This document shows, piece after piece, positions 53,319 through 54,775 of a stretch of DNA of 64,000 nucleotides. The translations under genes and the position numbers were made by a program. Each line of letters opens with the position of its first letter. Within the stretch, counting starts at the first letter, position 1. This DNA comes from Halorhabdus amylolytica (GTDB lineage: Archaea > Halobacteriota > Halobacteria > Halobacteriales > Haloarculaceae): the NCBI RefSeq assembly GCF_004944975.1, contig NZ_SPQG01000006.1:86860-150859 (forward strand), written 5' to 3'. A model generated the notes under the pieces. It did not search any database and was not told the DNA's origin. It worked only from the letters and a program-made list of their open reading frames with translations.

Positions 53319-53900
53319 ATGGAGGTGCGGCGTACTGTCCCGGTGAAACTCGACGTGGACAGCGACGACGCCGCACTTCTCCGCGAGACAGTCGATGAGT
53401 TTCTATGGGCTGCCAACTACGTCGTTGACCACGCTTGGCAAGGCAACTACAAGACCACAAGCAAGGTCCAGTTGCAGGAGGAAACCTACGACGACGTGCG
53501 CGACCGGACCCGGTTACACGCGAATCTCGTCCAGAACGCCCGCAACAAGGCCGCCGACGCCGTACAGGGCGTCGTTGCTCGTTGGAAGCAAGGTGAGTAT
53601 GCTGGCAAACCACACTTCTCGAAGCCGACCGTTGTCTACGACAAGCGGTGTGCGACCTTCCACGACGACCATGTTTCCCTCGCCACGATAGACGGACGCA
53701 TCGAAGCCCAGTACGTCCTACCAGACGGCGGCCGCGACACACCTCACAGTCGGTATCTCGACAACGACGACTACGGGGTGACGGGGGCAGAACTCCACAA
53801 CAAGGACGGCGAGTGGTTCCTTCATCTCCGCACAAAGGCGGAGGTGGAGTCGGACACGCCGGAGCAGGCAACGACCGAGCACAGCACAGTCCTCGGCGTT

Positions 53901-53956
53901 CACAAGAGCGAAGCTCTTGTGCAGCCCATCAGAAATCGAAGATTTCTGAGGACGTT
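53901..53956 (+). repeat. 56-bp twin-hairpin insertion in tnpB
   Basis: It contains CACAAGAGC-GAA-GCTCTTGTG (53901-53921) and TCAGAAATC-GAA-GATTTCTGA (53929-53949), both with perfect 9-bp arms and a GAA loop, 7 bases apart. CGTT occurs on both sides (53897-53900 and 53953-53956) and may be a target duplication. Confidence 0.85.
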
Positions 53957-54559
53957 GACCTCGGTGTGAACCAACTCGCGGTCACGTCAACGGGCACGTT
54001 CTGGAGCGGGAACGAGTTCGACCACTGGCGACGGGAGTACGAGAAACGCCGAGCCTCACTCCAACGGTGTGGCTCACGTCACGCTCACGAGAACATCCAA
54101 GCGGTCGGTCGCAAGGAGACGGGTCGGTTCAAGATGATGCTCCACCGGATTGCGAACGGCATCATTGAGGAAGCCGTCGAGAACGGTTGTACGGTCATCG
54201 CCTTCGAGGAGTTGACCGGCATCCGCGACCGCCTATCCGGTGCCTCGTGGGGGCACAAGTGGGCGTTCGAGCGGTTGTACGAGTACGTCGAATACAAGGC
54301 CGAACTCCACGGTATCGACGTGGAGCAGGTGGACCCAGAGAATACATCACGCCGTTGTTCACACTGTGGGTTCACGCACCCAGACAACCGCGACGGCGAG
54401 GACTTCGAGTGTCTGAAATGCGGCTACGAGAACCACGCCGACTACAACGCCGCCAAGAACATCGGCTTGCGGTATCTCCGCCGTAACCAAACTGGGGACG
54501 GCGGAGGCGCACCCGTAGGCGTGTGCTTGAATCGCGGGACGTTGAACGCGAACGGAGAG

Positions 54560-54775
54560 TATGAACCTCCTGCCGAAGATTTCGGCCAGAGCGGGAGTCC
54601 ACGCGAAAGCCCCAGTGGAGGCTCACAGCCTCCACGTCGTCAGACCTCGTCTGACGGAACCCTCAACGAAGCGAACGGCGATAGCGCGGAACGAAGTTCC
54701 GCGGACCATTCGAGCGGGCCTGCGGCCCGCGAGAAGAAGCCGTGAGCGAGTAGGGTGGGGTAGTTTACAAGACGT
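54560..54775 (+). ncRNA. Possible right-end (omega-type) RNA of the tnpB element
   Basis: TnpB systems use a guide RNA overlapping the 3' end of tnpB and the element's right end. Here that region has four perfect hairpins: 54615-54635, 54638-54656, 54685-54703 and 54714-54730. This is position-based inference; two of the hairpin pairs may be later insertions, in which case the RNA may not work. Confidence 0.3.
54615..54730. repeat. Two further twin-hairpin units in the tnpB tail
   Basis: Unit one: GTGGAGGCT-CAC-AGCCTCCAC (54615-54635) and CGTCAGA-CCTCG-TCTGACG (54638-54656). Unit two: CGCGGAAC-GAA-GTTCCGCG (54685-54703) and GCGGGCC-TGC-GGCCCGC (54714-54730). Unit two is absent from the matching remnant at 27746-27795, which joins its flanks with three bases. 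Confidence 0.85.

Follow-up and report, generated by a model that had tools for sequence, protein, structure and literature searches.

A two-hairpin, probably mobile element of Halobacteria directly before the RuvC-I aspartate codon of a tnpB gene

The byp elements in the mitochondria of the yeast Magnusiomyces are short DNA hairpins that lie within coding genes, between codons that match. Translational bypass is known for these elements and for gene 60 of T4. In Archaea, the closest known kind are the palindrome-associated transposable elements (PATEs) of Haloquadratum, which include 52-bp forms consisting of the termini only (PMC3119063). PATEs are haloarchaeal, non-coding, about 52-60 bp long and often located in or near IS1341/IS605 elements; they have palindromes near both ends and no room for a transposase, lack terminal inverted repeats and do not duplicate their target. 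CGTC-tagged REPs are paired stem-loops of 8-9 bp with a CGTC-like tag in intergenic and intragenic positions. A dedicated transposase is not known for them, and the phyla listed for these repeats do not include Archaea (PMC3733652). The Rickettsia palindromic elements RPE-4 and RPE-6 lie in frame in unrelated protein genes, to which they add about 20-30 residues (PMC3733652). Here we describe a haloarchaeal element that resembles each of these in part.

The window, a stretch of 64,000 nucleotides from the haloarchaeon Halorhabdus amylolytica, contains an IS1341-type tnpB on the plus strand (53319..54745) that is split by an insert. An earlier note, made from the letters alone, had placed 56 extra bases directly before the RuvC-I aspartate of this gene, and the open reading frames and a structure alignment bore out the frame, the length and the site. 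The upstream frame (53319-53969) reads STVLGV, runs through the 56 extra bases and stops with a TGA at 53969, giving a product of 216 amino acids; the downstream half is read in a different frame, up to 54745. This half matched the Pfam family Cas12f1-like_TNB (E 1.8e-23), and with its RuvC-I Asp motif and TNB zinc-finger domain the gene has the features of TnpB. Since TnpB and Cas12f chains of solved structures align over the junction (VLGVDLGVN), the insert was placed directly 5' of the RuvC-I aspartate, whose catalytic codon (53957..53959, plus strand) lies 2 bases 3' of the insert. The same junction was found in Haloplanus sp. HW8-1, where the tnpB (88.8% identity) has an exact empty site without the 56 bases. 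The segment is present in some tnpB copies and missing from most, as expected for an insertion into an otherwise normal gene and not for a translated part of all TnpB proteins.

Two side observations concern this tnpB and its relatives. A third hairpin with a GAA loop (CGCGGAAC-GAA-GTTCCGCG) is present at 54685-54703, towards the 3' end of this gene, where the guide RNA of tnpB would be expected. In Haloplanus sp. GDY1 (L020, NZ_CP098516), a close relative of the gene is broken by an IS5-family transposase gene instead.

Homology defined the element as the 56 bp TTCAC...GAGGACG at 53899..53954 on the plus strand, 2 bases to the left of the interval given before. The covariance model R1 matched 53897-53954 with 86.1 bits and E 3e-26, the window copy itself being one of the 13 sequences of the model. 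On the left stands the 3' end of the target, the CG at 53897..53898 (plus strand) in the context CTCGGCG. Two hairpins with 9-bp arms and identical GAA loops follow on the plus strand as the note had seen them, hairpin 1 (CACAAGAGC-GAA-GCTCTTGTG) at 53901..53921 and hairpin 2 (TCAGAAATC-GAA-GATTTCTGA) at 53929..53949. They are separated by the linker CAGCCCA (53922..53928, plus strand), which is invariant in 13/13 aligned copies, and are followed by the conserved right end GGACG (53950..53954, plus strand). The family consensus is TTC-hairpin-GCAGCCCATC-hairpin-GAGGACG.

The arms of hairpin 1 covary across the copies, and in hairpin 2 five pairs were changed on both sides. When the 13 distinct copies were aligned over 60 columns, 99.1% of the structure cells were paired, seven pairs were changed on both sides, and the covariation score was 0.38 compared with 0.11 after shuffling. 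Folded as DNA, the window insert had a z of -4.9. The loops vary freely among the copies and mostly have 3 nt. Element length ranges from 53 to 62 nt, not enough to encode a transposase, and 56 nt is the commonest length, non-coding sites included. Inspection of the termini, TTCAC... and ...GAGGACG, revealed no inverted repeat between them.

The repeated nature of the insert across the class is not visible from the window sequence alone. A strict pattern, GTGCAGCCCATCAG-N-CTGAGGACG, had 15 matches, which were spread over 11 of the 59 genomes searched, and 0 matches when reversed. The absence of control matches, the fold z and the model E show that the two-hairpin insert is not a product of chance. 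In a larger sample of 292 Halobacteria genomes, a strict pattern located about 145 copies in 87 genomes, again with 0 reversed-control matches, and at E<=0.001 the covariance model matched 268 of the 292, some of these matches being sister types. With a looser junction pattern, most matches were due to chance, and the analysis was therefore confined to those containing the element core. When a phylum-wide sample was searched at E<=1e-6, 33 genomes were matched, all from the order to which the window belongs, against 0 of 187 genomes outside it (226 sampled minus 39 counted as own, same family or same order). Among plasmids, 46 records had a copy, and all of those listed were haloarchaeal; the H. 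walsbyi plasmid PL47 had none, which is a weak test with a small plasmid. Carriage by viruses was rejected, as no copy was present in the viral contigs and phage records searched. A known RNA family was likewise rejected, since Rfam gave no match for the window stretch even at E<=1 and none at gathering score in seven loci. We conclude that the 56 bases are a copy of a structure-conserved family that is repeated throughout the class.

Related types were also observed. A sister type with the linker CGCACACC or AGCACACC and the end GGGGACG occurs in the genome of the window itself (L003:1500-1560), upstream of the tnpB junction in L119 and in the left flank of L064; in L008, L009 and L017 it adjoins the main type head-on. 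A third type, GTGAGCCAATC...GATGACG, is present at least 19 times in the genome G083 (L311-L330). Almost every copy lies within a larger conserved repeat that starts with GGGACTCAAAGGGGCAG and has ACGTAAGCACCGCA behind. In L226, two elements of the same orientation bracket the 5' part of a tnpB, and in L227 one element joins the outer flanks of an L226-like arrangement, as expected from a deletion between two copies. In L059, L061, L191, L192, L196, L197, L199, L206, L221 and L247, the element has TTTTTC within a few bases on its left and TTTTTG or TTTTTC immediately on its right, possibly a recurrent terminator-like context.

The target was analysed in the flanks of 104 copies, which gave 73 distinct pairs. 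The left flank was mostly CGRCG, the element started with TTC and ended with GAGGACG, and the right flank was variable. CG stood left of the element in 73/73 pairs, but CG, TTC and GAGGACG were built into the search pattern, so that independent support comes from the bias at the 3 bases before CG and from the variability on the right side. The CGTT on both sides of the window insert had been taken for a possible 4-base target duplication. This reading was rejected by clean pairs of filled and empty sites: in the L119/L069 pair, an element of the sister type (TTGAC...GGGGACG), the filled site reads GACGGCG, 54 nt and ACGACGCAG, the empty site reads GACGGCGACGACGCAG, and nothing is duplicated. 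The left CGTT in the window is therefore made up of the target CG and TT of the element, and the right one of CG of the element and TT of the host. The element enters after a target ending in CG, without duplicating it.

With its anatomy and target known, the element can be compared with the described systems. It shares with PATEs the properties listed above. PATEs are not described there as lying in frame within core genes, where the present family is found (PMC3119063). In PATEs, the palindromes are related to the ends of IS605-type transposons. Hairpins 3' of the tnpB in L022 resemble the element by eye, but the loci examined gave no firm connection to such ends, and we call the element PATE-like rather than a PATE; the likeness is one of anatomy. 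The 9-bp stems, the right end GACG (CGTC on the other strand) and the left end CGTT agree with CGTC-tagged REPs, as does the lack of a known dedicated transposase. However, the loops of the element mostly have 3 nt instead of 4-5, there is no CCA tail in the orientation of the tag, and the two hairpins form a fixed unit with a conserved linker. Also, head-to-head dimers predominate among these REPs, whereas the tags of the element are at the outer ends, if the head is the tagged end. The Rickettsia elements belong to another domain of life; in its behaviour within genes, the element resembles both them and the REPs. Filing the element as a CGTC REP or as a Rickettsia palindromic element was rejected because loop length, tail and pair orientation differ.

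The window tnpB is one of several with an insert near the RuvC-I aspartate. Five others (L120, L121, L124, L125 and L128) are filled at the same base (site 1), and seven (L069, L114, L119, L122, L123, L126 and L127) are filled 12 bp downstream, after a second CTCGGCG (site 2), the elements being nearly identical. The genomes with filled sites include Halopenitus persicus, Halorubrum sp. 48-1-W and Halegenticoccus soli. A target as short as CGRCG does not account for the repeated use of these two sites. In trees of the joined coding sequences, the filled tnpBs were scattered among empty ones. Site 2 required seven changes for seven rows and site 1 four for six, at least four of them forced by well-supported branches at each site; these counts do not distinguish gain from loss, and that of site 2 is inflated by L126, which is wrongly placed because of an upstream frameshift. 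A single clade of filled rows was rejected with p 2.7e-66 for site 2 and p 0.048 for site 1.

Such a distribution might also arise if each site was filled once in the distant past and the insert was then spread or inherited with tnpB and precisely lost many times. The tree counts, being blind to direction, would allow this, and the arm sequence correlates with the site (p 0.005), which also fits a spread of filled alleles. However, the 56-nt elements of L124, L125 and L128 are identical despite a dS of 0.35-0.58 between their tnpBs, and in the trees the filled rows pair with different empty sisters. Nor is there a shared tract beside the insert, where filled tnpBs were no more alike than over the whole gene; local gene conversion was rejected as the source of the shared sites for the same reason. 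An ancient origin is thus unlikely. The trees and the missing conversion tract point to repeated, independent and recent insertion at both sites as the simplest reading.

The insertions at these two sites have the same consequence for the reading frame. All of them (13/13) are 56 nt long, 2 over a multiple of three, and break the frame. The earlier note had concluded that the insertion inactivates TnpB unless the ribosome shifts frame. The broken frame stands and loss of the nuclease activity of the window copy is the most likely outcome, but the filled genes are no more decayed than the empty ones: lesions elsewhere in the gene were found in 5/13 filled and 9/29 empty tnpBs (p 0.73), the 29 being a sample selected by the junction. 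The dN/dS of filled pairs was 0.08-0.2, like that of intact pairs. The normal dN/dS and the missing excess of lesions fit recent knock-outs and do not by themselves demonstrate loss of function.

The same dN/dS would be expected if the split gene still gave one protein, with the ribosome shifting frame or bypassing the 56 nt between the GTT before and the GTT after them, as the byp elements would suggest. All 13 copies are equal in length, both tnpB frames are open across the element, and most open reading frames flanking the insert are open. However, 56 nt is the commonest length anyway, also at non-coding sites, the freely varying loops hold no conserved slippery site, and the insertions appear recent. 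Elsewhere in coding DNA, core genes included, the family differs from byp in preserving the frame through its length, and the present data gave no evidence of bypass. We therefore regard a continuous product as very improbable. Still further from likely is a removal of the 56 nt from the RNA by splicing, which would join the frames and is known for some structured introns in archaea. The folded RNA consists of two separate hairpins with no evident bulge-helix-bulge at the junctions, and the same family occurs in non-coding DNA and in frame within core genes, where removal is unneeded. A recent knock-out of the window tnpB remains the preferred reading.

Copies in other genes were mostly in frame. 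In-frame copies, including versions of 54 and 60 nt in core genes, were found in an NAD kinase (L209), an AsnC-type regulator (L228), a PEBP-like gene (L190), a fibrillarin-like gene (L231 and L298) and at two positions of TrpB (L220 and L225). Further hosts were an OB-fold-like protein (L118), an HTH-like protein with two copies (L115) and an apparent intein in a DNA polymerase gene (L212); these three, and L225, whose open reading frame is cut short, were assigned by reading the sequence and not by a family match. The encoded peptide has about 18-20 residues and resembles VRKT..SSSAAHQN..RSED. In the fibrillarin-like gene, which has a single match in each of 97 genomes, the 18-residue insert was present in two genomes and missing from 18 aligned relatives. 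Ten loci have an in-frame copy (57 or 60 nt) close to the C terminus of TnpB itself, and four have one of 57 nt at IPD/D, among them an annotated CDS of Salinigranum marinum that is intact; in-frame copies of 60 and 54 nt occupy two further positions of TnpB. The family thus shows the in-frame insertion into unrelated genes of the Rickettsia elements, and the window copy is out of frame. We found no report of in-frame elements of this kind in Archaea in the literature open to text search.

The length was divisible by three in 10/11 coding and 3/26 non-coding contexts, classed by hand (p 8e-6). Together with the frame-breaking 56-nt copies, this suggests a survivorship filter, by which frame-breakers would persist in dispensable genes and non-coding DNA and frame-keepers in genes that matter. 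A similar idea has been raised for intragenic REPs (PMC3733652).

Taken together, our results make it highly probable that the 56 bases are a non-coding, mobile two-hairpin element dispersed across Halobacteria, which entered the codon before the RuvC-I aspartate, 3' of CTCGGCG, without duplicating its target and probably in recent times. There it breaks the frame, with presumed loss of the nuclease activity of the window copy. It would be mobilised in trans by a single-strand, hairpin-recognising mechanism of the IS200/IS605 or REP kind. Neither a full-length parent IS605 with the same ends, nor a mobilising enzyme, nor half-elements bracketing a transposase were found among the loci examined. 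It is conceivable, and here we are tentative, that the family is an undescribed one with lineages each directed to particular sites, among them the tnpB catalytic codon, where they would silence RNA-guided nucleases, and that copies of frame-preserving length turn into translated parts of core proteins, fibrillarin, TrpB and NAD kinase among them.

The family is present in nearly all sampled haloarchaeal genomes and acts in coding DNA like the Rickettsia palindromic elements. Its small, non-autonomous members repeatedly break the gene of an RNA-guided nuclease at the catalytic codon, and the recurrent sites make the target choice and the mobilising enzyme directly testable.
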